A stretch of 64,000 bases of DNA, taken from positions 78,450,866 through 78,514,865 of the forward strand of contig NC_060252.1 of the NCBI RefSeq assembly GCF_921293095.1. Direction: 5' to 3'. Numbering within the stretch: position 1 is the first letter of the stretch; each line of letters begins with the position of its first letter. Position numbers and translations under genes: made by a program. The notes below the pieces were generated by a model. It saw nothing but the letters and a program-made list of their open reading frames with translations. It searched no databases and was not told the origin of the DNA. This DNA comes from Ischnura elegans (taxonomy: Eukaryota > Arthropoda > Insecta > Odonata > Coenagrionidae). This document shows, in pieces, positions 14,276-45,439 of this stretch.

Positions 14276-14921
14276 GATTATGTAATCAAGTAAAACCAAA
14301 CTGCAATCCAATGCAAGAAAATAGGATACATTGTTATACAAATTTAATGCTCTGACCTTTCTTGACCAATATATATTACTTATTAGTGGTAAAATGCGGA
14401 ATAAGTTGTCCTACAAGATTATATTTCTTAAACCCAGCACGTATAGGAATCGGAAGAGGGATGGATAGCTATTCGCACAGTCGTCCAGCACTCACCACAT
14501 GAAAGAAAAGTTTTTTTCTGAATTAAAATCACAACTTACATCATTATCCTTGGCTGTTAAGGAAATATGAAATTATTGATTTCAGAGAAAAAGGGGTGGT
14601 GTTTCAGTTAAAATAATTACTTTTAGGCAATTAAGGGAAGAAAAGGACAATCAAGTCATAAAATCCATTATTTAATTCATCTGACGAAAACATCTCAGCT
14701 CTTTAATTTGAGTAAAAGTACTACATTACATTTCCCTTGACTCCATTCCCACCAGAGAGGGCACTTCACGAACACTGAATACCAGCAATAATAAATTTGA
14801 TAGAATAAAAACCTTCTTACAACTATACATGTTAGTGCCAACTCCATGGCGATCGGGAAAATGGTATAGTATTGCATAATCGACAAACAGAAAGGCATGC
14901 ATTAAAACCGTATGCGGATAT

Positions 14922-15020
14922 GGAATTTATTCGGGTTTCCCACCGGGTGAGGTTCTCCATCTCAGGGCTGGGCAGGGTTCAGGGCTGATGACGATGGACG
15001 ACACGGCCATCGAAACGTCG
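14922..15020 (+). repeat. left part of a foldback repeat split by a transposon
   Basis: It reads ATTCGGGTTTCCCACCGGG, then GAGGTTCTCCATCTC, then a spacer with GATGACGATGG and CATCGAAACGTCG. It has the same order of parts as the left arm and centre of the foldback at 2570-2746. Its partner arm lies on the other side of the insertion at 18046-18095. Confidence 0.75.
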
Positions 15021-15329
15021 CACAGTGGTCCCAAATCGAAAAAAGCTGGCCAAAATTAATAACGTCGTAATTTTAGCTAAAACAGCAACAAAAGTGGGTG
15101 TCTCCTACTGATTTTGATCGTCTGAATCTGATTTTGGCATTATTTTTACGATGTCTCTTCATTTTAGCTTTTTTTGAGCTGTTATTATTTAAACAATTTT
15201 TAGAAAATCTCGATATAGATGTCATTGCGATTGGCGATAACTTGGTGTTCGTGGAGAGCTTAAAATAGTATAATTTTAAGGTAAAAGATGCATAAATTGT
15301 TGTTAAAACCCATTATAGAATTTACACAT

Positions 15330-15362
15330 GAAATTGGTGAGATTCGAACCCGCGACCATCAG
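15330..15362 (-). repeat. tRNA B-box-like sequence
   Basis: The minus strand reads GGTCGCGGGTTCGAATCTC, a good RNA polymerase III B box, inside the Transib-like element. No matching A box or cloverleaf can be drawn around it, so it may be a SINE fragment or chance. Confidence 0.3.
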
Positions 15363-15690
15363 CATAGTCGGTGAAAATCGACTAAAATCCAAAATCGGAA
15401 AAAAATACGCACACTCACTCATTTTTGGCTTCCATGTATTTGATAAGTCACATTAGATGAAATAAATGACTGATATTAAGAACATTGAGGAATATAATGT
15501 TCGAATTGCAATAAAATCGCTTTCTTGTATCACAAAGAACAAATTCTAAAAGAATCGTCGTCCGATGTCACCCCATCGGACTCATTGTCGCTCTGCGAAT
15601 CACTTAAAATTAGCAAATTTTTACCTTACCTGATAGGCTGACATCGTTTTTTGTAACTCCTGATGTAATTAAAATGTATGATTCAGATAT

Positions 15691-16019
15691 TTAAAGGAGT
15701 CTTCGAAAGATATCTTCATAATTTAACATTCTTGGGTTTTTTGTTGTACAATGCTCTCGGAATTTCCTCATGCCTATGTTCCTGATCTCCAATGCTTCCT
15801 CCTTTAAAACTTCAATTGTAAGAAAGGATTCTTTGGAAATTGCTGTTCCATGTATCAGCACTTTATGTACCATGAGCAGAATATAATACCAACTATTATT
15901 GATGCACAGCTCAGCTATTTCAATGCAATACTGGCTGAAGGCTTCATTATTTATCTCATAGCCGCAGGACAGAGATTTTAATATCACTGAAAGTCTATGA
16001 ATAAGTCTTTCATCGATAC
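15691..16019 (-). pseudogene. Transib-type transposase, C-terminal part
   Basis: The frame reads IDERLIHRLSVILKSLSCGY, EINNEAFSQY, then WYYILLMVHKVLIHG, LKEEALEIRN, FREHC and NYEDIFRRLL. This pattern (start near GIDE-LI, then W-Y---VHK-LIHG, then EEA-E-RN--F--REH, then ED---RLL) is one I know from arthropod transposase proteins; I assign it to Transib with some caution. An acceptor-like CACGGCAG precedes 16019, so this is likely one exon. After the stop at 15691 another frame at about 15540-15600 encodes an acidic Ser/Asp-rich tail (SDSQSDNESDG), as if a frame shift separates them. I found no clear match for the catalytic N-terminal region farther up, so the gene is taken as broken. Confidence 0.6.
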
Positions 16020-18045
16020 CTGCCGTGAAAATTACAAATCACATTAATAATTACATTTCATACACATAAAGCATTTATTCGTAGATTTTTCAAAATTATG
16101 GAAACGGGTCCAATATTTCTTACTTGTTGATTATAATTTTATATTTACACGTAATTTTATCTTGTCTGAAATGAAATCCTGAATTAAAACTTCACTTTTA
16201 AAAATATGATGATTGAGATTAATGAGTGATTTTTTTATACACTGCACATATTCGCCGACTGTGCATACACGGTAATCATTTGCACTCACTATATGCGAGA
16301 GGGAGGTATTGATATGCTTCTGGAGGGAATTTCATTTCCTTCTGCAACCAGGTTTTGAACATCTCTTTGAAATGCTCATCTGTCCTCGAGCTTTGATTCC
16401 ACTTTCTCAGGTATTTCGAAAAAACATTCTTATCACAAAACGCGTCATAATATTTTTTGCATGCTTGATTTCATTCGGTCGAAATCTTGTTTTCAAATAT
16501 TCCACGACATATTCCAACTTCTTCGCTTATTAATATTCTTTTCTCTCTGTATTTTTATTGTGCACCGCAAGGTACGAAAAAATTTGCGGCACCCATAATT
16601 CAAATTTAACACGAGTATTTACGGCTGTAACGATGAATGTGATTTCTAAAAGTTGTCTTTTTTTAACCAATAATAAACCGGAAATTATGAGTTGACATTG
16701 AATAAAAGAAATACAAGCTTATATAGACTTGCCTCTGAGTTTCCGGCGTATCCTGAAATTTGAATGCCAAACATTGCCAAACCAAGTGCTTTAGTTATCT
16801 AGACAGGAGAAGTTTCTCGAGTTAGCCGTGTTAACACAGTTCGGATCACAGTACTTTTTCACTAAGAAAATCATTAATTATTACTGAGTGGGAAATATTC
16901 ACCACATCCATGCTATGGCTCTGGTGAGGGAGGCCGTCATACTCATTCCATTATTATTTAAAAAATGCACTTGCAAGATTCACGCTCCATTGGTGGGTTT
17001 AGACGAATGTTTCCCTCCAAATTCAATCCTATCTACGTCTATGGGCTGTAGAAATGATTCTGTGAACAATTCTTGGCATTAGGGAGCATTTATTTCTCTT
17101 AGCGCCAATACCTTATTTCGGAATAACGTGCTGACAACGCTGTACAGCATGTACGGGATCTCTTCTCTATAAAAAATATGAGGAAAGTTTTGCAGAGAAA
17201 AGCACCTTGTGGTTACTGTAAGGTTCTCGTATAACGACTTAAGTAGTCGCTTTTGATCACTCATAATGTTTCTCATTAAGAGCATGAAAACCGGCCCTCA
17301 TTGGTTTCATGAATATTTGAAGGTGAGTGCACAAACGAGAAGTGTGCATACGATAGGCGTGAAGTACTTGATTTATGTAATCGTACAGGATGTGGAATTA
17401 TACTAAGTATACACCATGCAAGCTTGACCACCGATACAGGAATATTTGAGCGATAATGCCACTGTCTCCCGCCGGCCGCCGGCCAGCCGCCCTCAGCGGA
17501 GCGGTGCACCGCTCAACTTAAAACCCTCTAGATGTCGGATAGGCAAGTATAGGCAAGATTTTTTTTCTCCATCTTATTGTACATACTCTTCCTAAGGATT
17601 CAGCATAGGAATCTTCGAGGGGCACGGAGGGGCACAAAACTATATCGACACATTTGACTAAAAATAGGCCCAAAAATAGCTAACATTATAAATAATTAAA
17701 TATTGTTATAATAAATTCTGAAACGAACAAAACATACTATAATATTGTTAACAAATATGCAAACTTACCATATTAAAATTGACCAATTAATCCCATGAAA
17801 TTAAAATAGTCATTTATTAAGTTGAATTACCCTAAAATCGACTATTTCTACGCCTCGGGCGTTTTAGGCTGAACATGCCCATGTTTGACGGGTTACACAG
17901 GTCAGCATAATAATCACACAGACCTATAAGGTACAAAATATTATAGGCCATATTCTGTAGAATCCGAATACATAATTCAAAACTTCCTCGTAAAAAGTCG
18001 AAAAAATGACTTTTGGCCAGCTTTTTTCGATTTGGGACCACTGTG

Positions 18046-18095
18046 CGTCGGCAGAGATGGAGAACCTCACCCGGTGGGAAACCCGAAACAACTTC
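18046..18095 (+). repeat. right arm of the split foldback repeat
   Basis: It starts with the second CGTCG copy and continues GGCAGAGATGGAGAACCTCA and then CCCGGTGGGAAACCCGAA, the reverse complement of the arm at 14930-14964. Without the insertion the repeat would be about 145 bp, close to the 177-bp copy at 2570-2746. Confidence 0.75.
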
Positions 18096-18315
18096 AATAT
18101 CATTATACGCCGGAAAACCTCAGCTCTTTCTTCATATACGGATGATAACTACATATTCTCCGGGTAATATGTCGCGTATTTTAATTTTATTTTCCCTTAA
18201 CATTCTTTCTAATCGTAAATGAATTTCAGCGGCTACTCATAAGCCGTCTTTCGCTACGGCTTACTACTCTTGAATTAGTAGGAATGATATTTACAACCCA
18301 AAGCATACTATTGGG

Positions 18316-18545: not shown

Positions 18546-19473
18546 CTGTTGAGTATAATCTCACGATACTTTTGATTTAGATAGGATGCCCCACGGCATT
18601 AATCGCTCCCATTAGCACATTATAGAATCAATTGTTAAATGCACGCTCAAAGTGGCATACAACAGAATTATCTGGGAATTGATATGACACGTTTTTTCTC
18701 CTCCAGAAGTGTCAATAACAGGTTATATTAACAAAGATACACGCATAAATTAACTCTTTCAAACACGGTTTCATTTCATCACTGTGTTGTGCAGCAAACA
18801 TCCGATTGATTTTTCAGGAACATGCCTGCGAATGAAATCGGTATAATTAACGATTAATGTGATGATTAATCTCAAAAGATTGAGCATATCATGTTTTTTC
18901 AAAGCTTCATTGATGCGGTCGAACCTTATTTCCTCATCGTAGACACGTTCTCAAAGATAATTACGGCAGCATGTTAAATTAATGGATAAATCGTAACGAC
19001 CCGAAATATTAATGGCACCGTCTAATGGGGTAAAATTCGCTCCCGCTCGCAACTTTTCCGGCATTCGATTACAAATTTCCCGGAACAACTATCGGATGAC
19101 ACATGGTGACCAATAGTTCATTAATTTAGACTCACAAACGATCGTCCCCGTATTAACTTATCAAATGGCATGTTTGCGATCTGGATGTTTCAGACGGATG
19201 AGTGGATAAAAGTATTGCCCTTAATCACATGATTCACGAAGCAAATGCCAATTTTTCTCATACGGGGTCTCTGTAATAAGCATTGCCTCTATCAGGATAG
19301 GACATCAAAAATATCGTCATCACCCTGGACCATCATCATCAGTCAACAATCCTAAGATTGGTTTGACGTAACTCTCTACTCCTCTCTCCTATTAATAATG
19401 AAAAACACTTTGTTACTTCCACAAAATTCACATTTTCTATTTATAGGCCCTTTGTCTAATGCTGTATCCCAAG

Positions 19474-19733: not shown

Positions 19734-19743
19734 ATCCCAAGCT

Positions 19744-20172
19744 ATCCCCAAAAACAAATACAAAGTTGCTTTTTATAATAATAACACCTTGGGTAGACTG
19801 TTAAATAATGCTAAAGATGTTATTGAACCAAAATTAAAATCTGGCATTTATAAATTAAAATGTAATAATTGTAATTCAAGCTACATCGGCCAAACGGGAC
19901 GAGACTTCAACACCAGGGTAAAGGAACACAGGGCATGTTGGAAAAACAAGGACGATACGTCAGCTTTCGCCCGGCACCTCCTGAAAATGGGGCACGGAAG
20001 TAATTTCGAACCCGAAATACTCCATTTTACTAGTAAAGGAAGAAGGATGGACGCCTTGGAAATTCGAGAAATAGTCATAAATGGAAACCTTGTTAACGAC
20101 ATAACCTTTCCCAACCCATCCCCTTTATTACTCATCACCCTCCAAAATCCTCCACCCCAACAACCCACCTGA
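19744..20172 (+). pseudogene. GIY-YIG endonuclease domain of a Penelope-like element
   Basis: The open frame runs 142 codons from the border of the hAT insertion to a stop at 20170-20172, with no start codon of its own. It reads KYKVAFYNNNTLGRLLNN, then SGIYKLKCNNCNSSYIGQTG, then RVKEHRACWK, FARHLLKMGH and GRRMDALEIREI. The GIY and YIG motifs, the CNNC pair between them, the following R-KEH and the late LEI-EI glutamate are the hallmarks of the Penelope endonuclease, which sits at the C terminus behind the polymerase. The last 30 residues are Pro-rich. The coding remnant looks recent and open. The upstream polymerase part is missing. Confidence 0.85.
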
Positions 20173-21080
20173 CAAACTGTGTCCCCCCCCCCTATTCTTA
20201 TCCACGCATTACCAATCCCAGCTTGAATCTAAAACTCTTTCCCCCACCTCCACATCAACAACCACAATATATATACCTGCCCCACCATATGTTGTATGTA
20301 TTTGAAAATGGTGTAATAGCCGAAACCGGTAAATAAAATAGAAATTGTGAATTTTGTGGAAGTAACAAAGTGTTTTTCATTATTAATATGGTGCCCTTCC
20401 ACCACGTAAATGCTTCAAGTTTCGATTTAATCCTCTCTCCTATCCGATAACCTTTTCATAGCGATGCATTTCTTCTCTTTTACGTCCTTTATAACCTGTC
20501 CTACGTAACTCATTCGGGGCCGTCCCTTACTATTCTTCCCTTCCACCTGTCCCTCTACGATCGTTTTCATCAGGCCACCATGTCTCGTAATGTGGCCAAC
20601 GAAGTTGTCGCGTCTTCTCCTTAAGGTTTTTAGGAGATTTCTTCTAATTTCTTTTAGGAGCTTTATTTCAAAGTATTTGAAAAAGTTTTTGCAAAATGCA
20701 CATTCTTGGCTTCTCACTAAAGAAAGTGTAGAACAAATATTGCAATAAAATATTGATGTAATTTAATTATAAATACTACTTTAGTTGTTTTTTCATGTAC
20801 GCGCTTAAGCTTTGTTAGTTTAGATTATCAAGGTAACACAAAATGAGCTACACTATATGTAAAGCATAATGTATTATTATTTTGGATGGTAGCCTCAAAC
20901 AGGTTATCCTTCGCGGCTACCTAAAATTACTCAATTTTGCTATTGTCATGTAATTTGTGTGTGGAGAAATAAAATTATTTATAATTATTTATATTATTAC
21001 TTCTCTTTTATCCCACTCTTCTCAGCACTTCCTCACCACTTGCTCGGTCGATCCATTTCATCTTCATCACTCATCGGTAT

Positions 21081-24809: not shown

Positions 24810-27200
24810 AGGTGGAACTGAGCATTGGAATTCATAGAATAAATCCATTGAGTCATTAATACTAATGCGCCACTAGATAATGAAATTCCACGACGACAAT
24901 TTTCAATTTAAACTAAGTTTATAAGGAACAACAACGATTAAAATATTAATACCAAAAGTCAAATGTATGTCTTGCTCAGAAGGATAAACGACTAATTAAT
25001 GGCGAAGAAGCAAGCCATTTGGTCCTCTCATTATTTCTTTCAAACATTAGCGATTTATAAAGAAAATTTATATAATCATTAACAAGGCTGGATATATTAA
25101 GTAACAACGCTGCAGTCACCTCTTTTCAATGTAATTCAATACCGTCCTAATCTCATCAATAAAAATTTAAGATCAGTAAAGGACGAGAATTTTAAACTCA
25201 TCGTTAAAACCCTAAATATTTCATGTACTTCAAAGCTGAATTTCAGGACATCCTAATAATTCCAGAATCGCAGTCAAATGACTTTTATTGGACCTAATCA
25301 CGGAGTTAATTTGAAATACTCTCTGCGGTGGTACAAAATATAGGAAAAGTAATTCTTTTGTCATGGTTTCACATCTAGAATTTTTAAGCTCCAGAAATAA
25401 TTTTTACTTTTATTTTCAAATGCAGCGTTTACGAATGCCTTTATAGCAAGTCAAGTTTAAAATCCTTTACACTTGAAAATACACATTTACAATTTACTTT
25501 CTGGAAACTGGCACAGAGGGAACTCGCAGGACAACGGTGATTTAAATTGTATTTTTTCAGAGCATAATGTTAAATGAAACTATTTTACAGCTTCCCATTC
25601 CATTGCTACGGAACATCCTACATCACCGATTCCCAGTATTCATACTCAATGTGTTGAAATGCGGGGTTGAAAGTATCTACAACAGATTCCAAAAAATTCA
25701 GCGAATAATTAAAAATATACGAATTTAAGTACGAATTATTACATTATAAGCATTAAGGACACTAGCCTGTTCATGAACAGTGTTCTTTAACGAAATTATT
25801 TTGAAAAACGTGCGAGGGCGCAACTTGAACTGTATTTTTGGGTGACTTCGTCTCACCGTTTGGGGAACGGTATTTTGACCGAAATGAAGTGAACTTTTAC
25901 AATGGTTTAATTTAGCATGGTCCACATCATGGTTGTTTAAACATCTACTTGACAATATTATGACTTCTAAATACTAGGTGAAATGATTTATCGAGAATTT
26001 AGGCCTTGATTACATCAGTCAGAAATAATTTTATCTAAACAAGAATATAAACATGAAATATATAAAATAAATTGGAAAATTAAAGTTGGAAACAAGTAAA
26101 ATTATAATAGCCTTATAATTTAAAAAATGTCACATGCAACGTTTCATAGTCTACAATTACGTAAAAGACTTAAATTGCAACAATAAGCGAGACGGGTGGC
26201 GTAAACCTTAAGTGAAACTTTATAAAAGAACTTGCATCAGCTATGCACCGCCGTATCCCTTCCTGAGAATGATTCGGCGGTTTTATTTCTTGCATAACAT
26301 AAGGCATGTTCAGCACATTGAACGCCACCTCTAGGGTGTTTGGCACTTGGCGATGGTGTCAAGCACTTGGCGATGATGATGACATACCGTCTCGTTCAAT
26401 TTCGATCAGCCTGTCGCTCCTTCAGAACGAGTGGGAGGCTTCAGCGAAGAGAGCCACTGAACTTAGCCAGCCGGTTCATCGTCCTGCTCAATAGAAGATG
26501 GATCCGTTGGCGCACGGCGCCTGTAGTCACGTAAGACGTCACTCGCAAAGATGTCGAGTGTCCCTTTAGGTCATCGGCCAGTCTCCTCTCTCGTAGAGTT
26601 CAAAACGATTGAATGACGATTCCCGAGTGAATCCAAGTAATTTAGCATTCGGCCATCTTGTGAAGAGTCTCCGAGGATTGCACTCCTTTGCAACGCATGG
26701 GAAATGCATGAATCTTTGATTTTTTTCACAAGTCATATCATGCGGATTGGATTAGAATATACTGTATCAAATACTGTTACTACTATTAAAAAAAATACTT
26801 GAATATACTGCTGACATTTAACGTGTATGATCTACGTATATACATCACTAACATTCTACGGAAGACAACAGTACCAATCAATTTTCAATTGACTCACTGG
26901 TTTCGAAGTTAGCAGAGGTTTGCGTTGTTTACAACAACTCCGTTAATTTTTGTGGTATAAACAATTTGTTTTCGGCAAACTACTAGTAATAGATGTGGCT
27001 TCTTTATATCAAAATTGCAAGTTATAGGAACGAAAACTACGGGAATGCCAAGCGCTCAAAGTTGGGCACCTTGATTTTACGCGCAAAAAACGGGTACTTT
27101 TTTGAGAAAAAATTAAGTACAGGAAATACTATTTAGCCGAAGAATTTTTAAAGTACATTATATATAAAAAAAATAAAAATATATATATAAAAAAAATATA
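24810..27200. other. stretch without a supported gene
   Basis: It is mostly AT-rich with no repeat I can bound. 26320-26720 is richer in G and C, with two CACTTGGCGATG copies and CGTCACTCGC-like CpG motifs. It could be a regulatory region or an untranslated exon, but nothing decides this. Confidence 0.4.
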
Positions 27201-27206
27201 TATTTT

Positions 27207-28915
27207 TTATTATATATATTAAAAAATTTATTAACACTAGTTTAGAAAATTCCATTGTTCCTGTTGAATTGAAAACAGCTATTGTTCGTCCGGTTTATAA
27301 AAGTGGAAATCACCTTCAAACACAGAACTATAGGCCCATATCTATCTTACCTTGTATGAGTAAAATATTAGAAAAATATGTGGCAGACATGCTGTTAAAT
27401 TTTTTGGACAAAAGTAGAGCAATTTTTGAGCATCAATATGGTTTTCAAAAAAAGAAAGGTACAAAGGATGCCTTAGAATACTTTTCAGAGAATATTCGAA
27501 ATAATTTAGATAGAGGAAAGAATGTTGTAATAACTTACATTGATTATAAAAAGGCTTTCGATATGGTTGATCACACTTTGTTGCTTAAAAAATTATACAA
27601 TATTGGAGTGAGAGGGTTGTTGCTTGATTGGTTTAAAGATTATTTATTTAATAGAAAGATGGTAGTGAAAGTTCAAAATGTTGTTAGTGATATTACCAGC
27701 ATAAAAATGGGAGTGCCCCAAGGATCGATTCTGGGGCCAATTTTGTATTTAATTTATGTTAATGATATGCATGAATGTATTAAAAATTGTAATTTACTTT
27801 TGTATGCTGACGACACAGTCTTGATATCTAGTCATGTCAACTTAAAAAATGCCGTCTATAATATGCAGAATGATATCAATAATATGTTAAAATGGTCCCA
27901 TGACAATAATTTAATTTTAAATGAAAAAAATCTAAAACAATGCACATCACTTATCTTGCTTCTAATATTAAATCAATAAATATTAAATCTCACGGCCATG
28001 AATGTCTACATTCCAACATGATAACTTGTAACTGTAATATTTTGGAACAAGTGAACGAATATAAATATTTGGGTTTGATTGTTGATTGTAATTTCACTTT
28101 TAATTCTCATGTATCAAAATTGAACCAAAAGCTCAGGTTCATTATGTACAAATTTTATTATCTGAAGGACAGCGTCACGAAAAATGTACTCAAAATGATG
28201 TATCACGGTCTTTTTGAGAGCCTTCTCAGATATGGCCTTACTGTGTGGGGATCATGTGGTGTGACTAATATGAAAAGATTGAAGTCCAACCAAAAAAGGA
28301 TTTTAAAAATGATTCATCAAACTAACTTTGAGGAAAATGGTGGATATTCAGGTGACTCGTATTTTAAAGACCTTGGTACATTACCACTTGATAATTTGTA
28401 TCAGTACATATTAATAATTGATAATTATTTTAATAATAGATACAAAAGGAAAAGAAATATTAATAGTAATATCGATTTAAGGGCTTTAGGAATGTATGAG
28501 ATTCCGCGATGTTATACGCATAAGGGTAATAGGCAATTGAAAGTTGTTGTACCTAAACTGTTCAATAATTTGAAGAGTGAATTTAAAGAGTTGAAATCTT
28601 TGAGTGAAGTAAAAAGAAAAATTAAGACATGGATATTGTCTGGTTGTTGATAATGGAATGTAGCAGTATTTTATATATTGATATGCTTAATTGCTATTAA
28701 GAATGTTTTTTTTAATGTATAATTTGTTTGTTAGTGAAATTGTTAATTTAGTAATTTTTACAAGACACAAATTGTAATGCTTAAGTTGGCACCTGCTGAC
28801 AAGCCAATTTCGGCTTAGCGGGACCAGAATGTTTGTTTTCATTTGTAAATTTACACTGTTGTATAAACATTATTTCTTGTTTGTACATAGTTAAATGAAT
28901 AAATAAAAATATTAA
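27207..28915 (+). mobile_element. Jockey/CR1-group LINE, 5'-truncated, about 1.7 kb
   Basis: The element starts inside the polymerase gene, runs through its end at 28650, has a 3' region of about 265 bases with a small hairpin-like AAGCCAATTTCGGCTTAGCG, and ends AATAAATAAAAATATTA. It lies in an AT microsatellite. AAAAAAAATATATAT at about 27188-27202 and 28914-28929 may be the target duplication. Only one frame shift is visible, so it is fairly young. Confidence 0.75.
27269..28650 (+). pseudogene. LINE reverse transcriptase, N-terminally truncated
   Basis: The first frame (27269-27979) reads LKTAIVRPVYKSG, NYRPISILP, YGFQKKKGTKDAL, then TYIDYKKAFDMVDH with the first catalytic Asp, GVPQGSILGPILY and LLLYADDTVLIS with the Asp pair. 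The second frame (27940-28650) continues with EYKYLGLIVD, FESLLRYGLTVWG and KRLKSNQKRILKMI, the thumb and C-terminal part of Jockey- or CR1-type enzymes. The frames join across an A run at about 27923-27929 (GAAAAAAAT), so a one-base change there explains the break. The endonuclease domain and ORF1 are missing. Confidence 0.85.
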
Positions 28916-39120: not shown

Positions 39121-39705
39121 TCAGAAGAACCCGTGGTGCCCACCACCGCCACTGCTGCTGTGGTGCTCGGAATGGTGCCCGCCGTGGTGGTCGGAGGAAT
39201 GTTCGCCGATGCCGTGGTGTTCGTATCCGTGGTGCTCAGCGCCACCTCCTCCTTCGTGGTGCGAGCCGCCGTAATCGTGCTGTCGCCTCCTCCTGTTGTG
39301 GTGGTGTCCTCCGTGGTGGTCATCGCCCTCCTGGTAAGTGGTCTTGTGCTGGTGAGCGGCCGCTTCCTCCCCACCCTTGGCGCTTCCGAAGGCCGAGTGC
39401 TGCTCGTATCCGTACGAGTCTCCGTCCTTCTTGTGGAAGCTGTCGAACGCCTTGTACCCCTTGTCTCCCTTGTGCGATTTGGACTTGAAGAACCCCTGGT
39501 CGCCTCCGCCACCGCCGGAGCTGTGGCCCGTGCCGGCGGCAGAGAGGTCATCCGGAGCGAACACGGAGACCTCCCACAGGTTGGACCCAATGATGGCAGA
39601 GTCTTCCACGCCCGAAACGTCTCTCCAAGCCGGGCTGGCGCCGCCGAGGTTCGCAAACAAGAATACGCCGCCGAGGGCGCACAGTAGTACCTTAGAGGCC
39701 AGCAT
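39121..39705 (-). CDS. secreted His/Gly-rich protein (194 residues)
   Basis: The frame stays open farther upstream, but the start at 39703-39705 is preferred. It begins MLASKVLLCALGGVFLFANL, a clear signal peptide with likely cleavage after GGA (about residue 23), and it lies about 60 bases below a TATA-like box. The mature part has a short hydrophobic block (residues 43-56, LWEVSVFAPDDLSA), then KSHKGDKGYKAFDSFHKKDG, then His/Gly/Ser-rich repeats (HHGGHHH, EHHG, SDHHGGHHSEHH). An Arg run, NRRRR at 137-141, could be a furin-type cleavage site. The Trp-Val...Asp-Leu block and the composition suggest common descent with the protein at 8454-9314. It is probably extracellular or cuticular and metal-binding; that is inference. 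Confidence 0.8.
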   Translation of the reverse strand: MLASKVLLCALGGVFLFANLGGASPAWRDVSGVEDSAIIGSNLWEVSVFAPDDLSAAGTGHSSGGGGGDQGFFKSKSHKGDKGYKAFDSFHKKDGDSYGYEQHSAFGSAKGGEEAAAHQHKTTYQEGDDHHGGHHHNRRRRQHDYGGSHHEGGGGAEHHGYEHHGIGEHSSDHHGGHHSEHHSSSGGGGHHGFF

Positions 39706-39763
39706 GTTCGTCGACGCGTCTGGACAACTGTGTAGACGATGTCCGCGAACGAAATAGACAGGT

Positions 39764-39770
39764 CTATATA
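39764..39770 (-). promoter_or_regulatory. TATA-like box of the second His-rich gene
   Basis: The minus strand reads CCTTATATAGACC. TATATAG starts at 39770, which would place transcription start near 39730-39740. An ACAGTTG initiator-like motif lies at about 39730. The leader would be about 25-35 bases long. Confidence 0.55.
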
Positions 39771-40255
39771 AGGTCCTCCCCACCGCTTTTGCGGATGGCG
39801 CCATGTTGGTAGGAGGGCGATCGGGGCTCAATTCTTTCGGTGCAATCCGCTTCCCCCCCACACCTTTCGTCTTCGCCGGGATTTTTCTTTCGCCTTGAGC
39901 CGTCACGCTCCTCCGATCCCATTGCCTGCTGTTTTTTGTGTCTGCTCCATTCCTCCTCTTTCCCCATAACCTCTTCTCTTCCGGAAATGCCTATGGGGAA
40001 GGTTGGGACTCAATAGATCGTTCGTACGTTGAACCCACTGAATTCAGTACGATGGAATGACGATCGCTACAACCCACCCACATGAGGATTTGAAGCCAGG
40101 CTGAACCCAATCCGGTTCCTCAAAACATGGCCGAATTCCTAAATACGTTTATCAAATAGGGAAGATGCGCTAAATTTAAATGTCATAATAGTGCTTTTTG
40201 AAGAACTTAATTTGTCTTAAGGCGACCAATTGGTCTATAATCCATGCATTTCCAT

Positions 40256-44811: not shown

Positions 44812-45387
44812 ACCACCATATAAAAGCCACTCTTTAACCATCAAGTGCTTAAAATAATTATTTCTTTCAATGCATTAAATTTCAGTGTATTTATACTTGG
44901 TTGACATAGGATTAAGGATATTTATTTCTATTTAAAAACTGCCGATCATATTTTACCACCATACAAAAGCCACTCTTTAACCATCAAGTGCTTAAAATAA
45001 TTATTTCTTTTAATGCATTAAATTTCAGAGTATTTATACTTGGTTGACATAGGATTAAGGATATTTATTTCTATTTAAAAACTACCGATCATATTTTACC
45101 ACCATATAAAAGCCACTCTTTAACCATCAAGTGCTTAAAATAATTATTTCTTTCAATGCATTAAATTTCAGTGTATTTATACTTGGTTGACATAGGATTA
45201 AGGATATTTATTTCTATTTAAAAACTGCCGATCATATTTTACCACCATACAAAAGCCACTCTTTTACCATCAAGTGCTTAAAATAATTATTTCTTTCAAT
45301 GCATTAAATTTCAGTGTATTTATACTTGGTTGACATAGCTAGGATTAAGGATATTTATTTCTATTTAAAAACTGCCGATCATATTTT
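44812..45387 (+). repeat. satellite: four tandem copies of a 143-bp unit
   Basis: Units start at 44812, 44955, 45098 and 45241, each with ACCACCATA. The first three are exactly 143 bp and differ by only a few bases. The fourth is 147 bp because TAGC is doubled after GACA. The unit is AT-rich and non-coding. The low divergence indicates recent expansion or homogenisation. Confidence 0.9.
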
Positions 45388-45439
45388 ACCCCTAGCAGCT
45401 TTCACACGAAGAGTTTCAAGGCAAAGGGAGAGTGTATGA

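Follow-up and report, generated by a model that had tools for sequence, protein, structure and literature searches.

A Transib transposon copy with CACAGTG ends and a paralogous empty site in the damselfly Ischnura elegans

Introduction

Transib transposons are a well-known kind of mobile element related to RAG1, the recombinase of vertebrate antibody genes, and their 5-bp target duplications have been noted for a GC bias (PMC8289069). The targets given for individual elements are GCTCG for Hztransib (PMC1852546), CCANTGG for hopper and transib2 of Drosophila (PMC3276498), and CCAGG for the RAG1-RAG2-bearing TransibSU (PMC4411706). As for the architecture of the ends, Subgroup I is described as having asymmetric ends throughout, and Subgroup II as having symmetric or asymmetric ones (PMC9435367). 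During Hztransib excision, the flank is reported to end in a hairpin and the signal end to be cut blunt (PMC6941560).

The ends of these elements have also been compared with the vertebrate recombination signal, whose consensus heptamer is CACAGTG (PMC8289069) and whose commonest form in immunoglobulin loci is given as CACAAAG (PMC8355894). For Hztransib, the comparison is worded as “clear sequence similarity” only (PMC8289069). According to a review, the heptamers and nonamers of some Transib ends are the very ones that RAG recognises (PMC6941560), and a hypothesis paper says that some of the few asymmetric Transibs have heptamers and nonamers that do not differ from those of canonical signals (PMC8355894). 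The precedent for an identical heptamer rests on the wording of these two texts, neither of which, in the passages concerned, spells out CACAGTG for a Transib.

Here we describe an element found in a 64,000-nucleotide stretch of contig NC_060252.1 (hereafter the window). We conclude that it is almost certainly a cut-and-paste DNA transposon of the Transib superfamily, here in one non-autonomous copy within a eukaryotic genome, with its transposase probably supplied in trans.

Results

The element occupies positions 15021-18045 (3,025 bp) and is bounded by terminal inverted repeats (TIRs) of 35 bp each, which match each other at all 35 positions and diverge inward of that length (Table 1). A preliminary description of this DNA had claimed identical 35-bp inverted ends that begin with CACAGTG and are flanked by CGTCG on both sides, and its positions prove exact. 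Given the base composition of the window, a particular 35-bp match is expected by chance with a probability of about 1e-20, and a particular 5-bp match, such as that of the target site duplication (TSD), with a probability of about 0.0013. Allowing up to three mismatches, the 35-bp end is matched twice in the whole window, while 100 shuffles gave 0.00 matches on average; a blastn search of the window (E 0.01) found no part of the element a second time. The locus presents, in a single copy, a GC-rich 5-bp TSD and CAC-starting, heptamer-like TIRs. The symmetry of the ends, taken by itself, points to a placement in Subgroup II. CGNCG had been put forward as a known mark of Transib targets; it is not general in the accounts cited above, which give GCTCG, CCANTGG and CCAGG, and the string does not occur among the literature matches listed.

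Table 1. Positions of the Transib element's parts and of the host repeat that it interrupts.
Feature	Position	Strand	Basis or remark
Left TIR (begins CACAGTG)	15021-15055	+	pattern match within window
Right TIR (same sequence as left)	18011-18045	-	pattern match within window
TSD, left copy, CGTCG	15016-15020	.	flanks left TIR
TSD, right copy, CGTCG	18046-18050	.	flanks right TIR
Transib transposase C-terminal remnant	15664-16023	-	PDB protein match; in-frame stop 15691-15693
Element interior, no coding remnant recognised in three minus-strand frames	16024-18010	-	PDB and Pfam
Host repeat, inverted-repeat left arm	14932-14963	-	exact 32-nt match to right arm
Host repeat, inverted-repeat right arm	18054-18085	+	exact 32-nt match to left arm
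Host repeat, hammerhead-like letters (CTGATGA, stem, GAAAC, GTC)	14985-15020	+	weak label

The heptamer by itself is an unremarkable word. The window contains CACAGTG five times where 4.04 occurrences are expected, and because this count lies near expectation, the weight of the heptamer rests only on its terminal position. The best resemblance to a nonamer reaches 6 of 9 positions, with p values in 5,000 shuffles of the left end of 0.20 at spacings of 12/23 ±1 and of 0.80 at any spacing. The nonamer-like word is accordingly rejected as a true nonamer, being at chance level in these shuffles, and the doubt expressed earlier over this resemblance was well placed. The ends thus carry the heptamer alone, and a vertebrate-type signal of heptamer plus nonamer at 12/23 spacing was not found in them. 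The same preliminary description had regarded the exact vertebrate heptamer as a departure from the usual Transib variant, a view that finds no support, as identical heptamers are reported in PMC6941560 and PMC8355894; a text search of the literature found no pairing of Transib with either CACGGTG or CACAATG. Transib and CACAGTG do occur together in three papers, in one of which (PMC8289069) the word is the vertebrate consensus. Because shared heptamers are already in print in PMC6941560 and PMC8355894, the present ends do not by themselves change the picture of recombination-signal origin.

Evidence for the identity of the element comes from its protein remnant. The 109-residue translation of 15691-16020 (minus strand) matches one distinct PDB sequence at E ≤10, the 6pqn transposase, with an E value of 2.4e-17 and 43% identity over the C-terminal core block. 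The PDB search names this protein only as a putative DNA-mediated transposase; we take it to be that of Hztransib (Helicoverpa zea Transib). When stops are read as X, the 6pqn match spans 120 residues (frame 675-794, corresponding to 15664-16023) at E 1.2e-17, the remaining three rows (E 0.72 to 1.8) going to CurK chains. Because this match covers the longer interval, the homology continues past the in-frame stop; the C-terminal block claimed at the outset is real, and its homology runs slightly wider than the interval given for it, 15691-16019. An H-x4-H motif is present in the block, and Pfam returned no match to it at E ≤1. The open frame of the block measures 115 codons from stop to stop, a length that is in itself no evidence, because 74 of 300 random sequences, generated by a first-order Markov model built on the element, contain in some frame an open stretch of 109 codons or more. 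Homology to a known Transib transposase in the C-terminal part, a GC-rich 5-bp duplication and CAC-starting ends support the assignment of the element to Transib. Membership in another CACTA-like superfamily (EnSpm, Chapaev or Mirage) is exceedingly improbable: these related superfamilies likewise have mostly CA..TG termini, with duplications of 2-5 bp (PMC12730594), but the duplication here is 5 bp and the protein block is Transib-like at the identity given above.

The consensus heptamer at the start of the ends would also be explained if the element were a RAG-like (RAG1L-RAG2L) transposon, nearer to vertebrate RAG than to Transib, and the block can indeed be aligned weakly with RAG1. In a two-sequence profile alignment, a glutamate of the block falls, weakly, in the RAG1 glutamate region, the aligned RAG1 residue being presumably the catalytic E962. 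However, the single-sequence PDB search returned the Transib transposase only, with no RAG1 chain at E ≤10. Only with the two-sequence profile did RAG1 and RAG1-like chains appear, in 16 of 22 rows (E 0.02 to 0.45); unrelated adenylate cyclase rows at E 0.032 are intermixed with them, whereas the Transib transposase scores E 2.7e-61 against that profile, a value inflated by the presence of its own segment in it. Comparison of the block with both families, which the preliminary description had proposed, hence comes out far in favour of the Transib transposase (E 1.2e-17) over RAG1. In addition, the three minus-strand frames of the interior contain no RAG2-like match, and the end consensus given for protostome RAGL elements, CACTWMCAAAC (PMC7204232), does not fit these ends. 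The block is nearer to Transib than to RAG1, the reverse of what a RAG1L would show, and we consider a RAG-like origin extremely unlikely.

Recognisable transposase amounts to about 120 of roughly 500 residues, and neither catalytic aspartate was located. The N-terminal part of the protein and both catalytic aspartates are expected in the 2 kb upstream of the block, where the three minus-strand frames returned no PDB row at E ≤10; as a positive control, the same method recovers the Transib transposase when the block is included. The PDB search was confined to two separate ORFs, these three upstream frames and one whole minus frame. The two separate interior ORFs gave chance-level PDB rows (best E 0.076, a mite allergen, and 0.73). 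Pfam gave nothing at cut-off for the short ORFs 17082-17285 and 16134-16289 or for the three upstream minus frames, in which Phyto_Pns9_10 appeared below threshold at E 0.13. With the remainder of the transposase not found in those three frames and a stop in the C-terminal region, the copy, as read from its sequence, is defective. An autonomous copy, whose missing exons are present but diverged beyond detection, could be imagined, since the letters immediately 5' of the block resemble an AG acceptor and so allow for an intron. Such a copy is nevertheless very improbable, as the block was detected at about 1e-17, yet the frames upstream of it yielded nothing, and the stop lies within the C-terminal region.

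The copy lies within a host repeat, which spans 14921-15020 and 18051-18096 and is split by the element at the end of the hammerhead-like letters. Removal of the element and one TSD restores a long inverted repeat, and the joined flanks fold as one long hairpin. A related, diverged repeat lies uninterrupted in the same window at about 2573-2733 (2570-2746 at its widest). This copy aligns continuously through the insertion point with a score of 122, where 200 letter shuffles reached no more than 33; blastn joins 2655-2733 over the point at 77% identity, and CGTGG stands in place of CGTCG. Because this paralogous empty site aligns straight through, the sequence between the TSDs is an insertion, and we regard the entry of the element into an inverted-repeat element as real.

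The hammerhead label for the host repeat is a weak one. The letter pattern, which lies at the centre of the joined inverted repeat, was counted once; shuffles average 0.27 occurrences, and 25 of 100 contain at least one. Rfam gave nothing at its cut-offs across the window and nothing at E ≤5 in 14900-15100, and its five rows on the related copy, all from microRNA-hairpin models, are below cut-offs; an unpaired hammerhead core is not seen in the lowest-energy fold of the joined flanks. Minimal type I hammerheads are described in Penelope-like elements (PMC7229834). That this one insertion represents a Transib lineage with the exact vertebrate heptamer fixed on both symmetric ends and a transposase that prefers the loops of hairpin-forming, perhaps hammerhead-bearing, repeats is very improbable.

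Scans of viral contigs, bacterial and archaeal genomes, and phages confirmed no close relatives. Because most described Transibs come from eukaryotes and these scans reach close relatives only, this result says little. Bacterial Transib-like proteins do exist, 42 having been reported (PMC9435367).

Several other features are present in the window. An ORF at 19735-20172 (plus strand), which encodes a GIY-YIG domain (Pfam E 1.5e-5), may derive from a Penelope-like retroelement; inverted repeats of 53 nt lie on either side of it, at 19390-19442 and 20336-20388. Two overlapping ORFs lie in 27191-28650 (plus strand): the first, at 27191-27979, encodes a domain of the reverse transcriptase family RVT_1 (E 1.1e-32), and the second (27925-28650) has no Pfam match. 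On the minus strand, a histidine- and glycine-rich ORF at 8457-9359 matches DUF4779 (E 7.1e-41), and another His/Gly-rich ORF at 39124-39990 has no Pfam match. A tandem array with a period of 143 bp occupies 44812-45390, with two further copies 97% and 99% identical to a 241-nt reference copy.

Discussion

The features of the locus suggest how the element may have arrived. A Transib transposase, probably from another copy acting in trans, would have bound both identical CAC-starting ends; excision would have left hairpins on the flanking DNA, by a chemistry that we infer from the Hztransib literature; and the element would then have been inserted at a staggered 5-bp cut in CGTCG, within an inverted-repeat element that was already there. 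Because perfect ends stand beside a mostly unrecognisable gene, a transposase from elsewhere probably moved this copy, and the unchanged ends fit a copy that was already defective when it moved. The element is genuine, but it belongs to a well-known kind and is an ordinary Transib copy; to a well-studied superfamily it adds one clean example of Transib ends accompanied by both a target duplication and an empty site in a paralogous repeat.

Compared with vertebrate RAG1 and its recombination signals, the element shares an identical heptamer and a weakly aligning glutamate region, but its ends are symmetric, with no significant nonamer and no 12/23 arrangement, and its block is much farther from RAG1 than from the Transib transposase. 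ProtoRAG and RAGL transposons likewise have a CAC start and a 5-bp duplication; unlike the present ends, those of ProtoRAG are described as starting CACTATG with 27/31 spacers (PMC8289069), and the minus frames searched here yielded no RAG2L, a component of RAGL transposons. Hztransib differs from the present copy, which is defective, and in its target (GCTCG as opposed to CGTCG), but the two share the C-terminal transposase block at 43% identity, a 5-bp duplication, inverted ends and a comparable length, that of Hztransib being given as 3,518 bp (PMC1852546).
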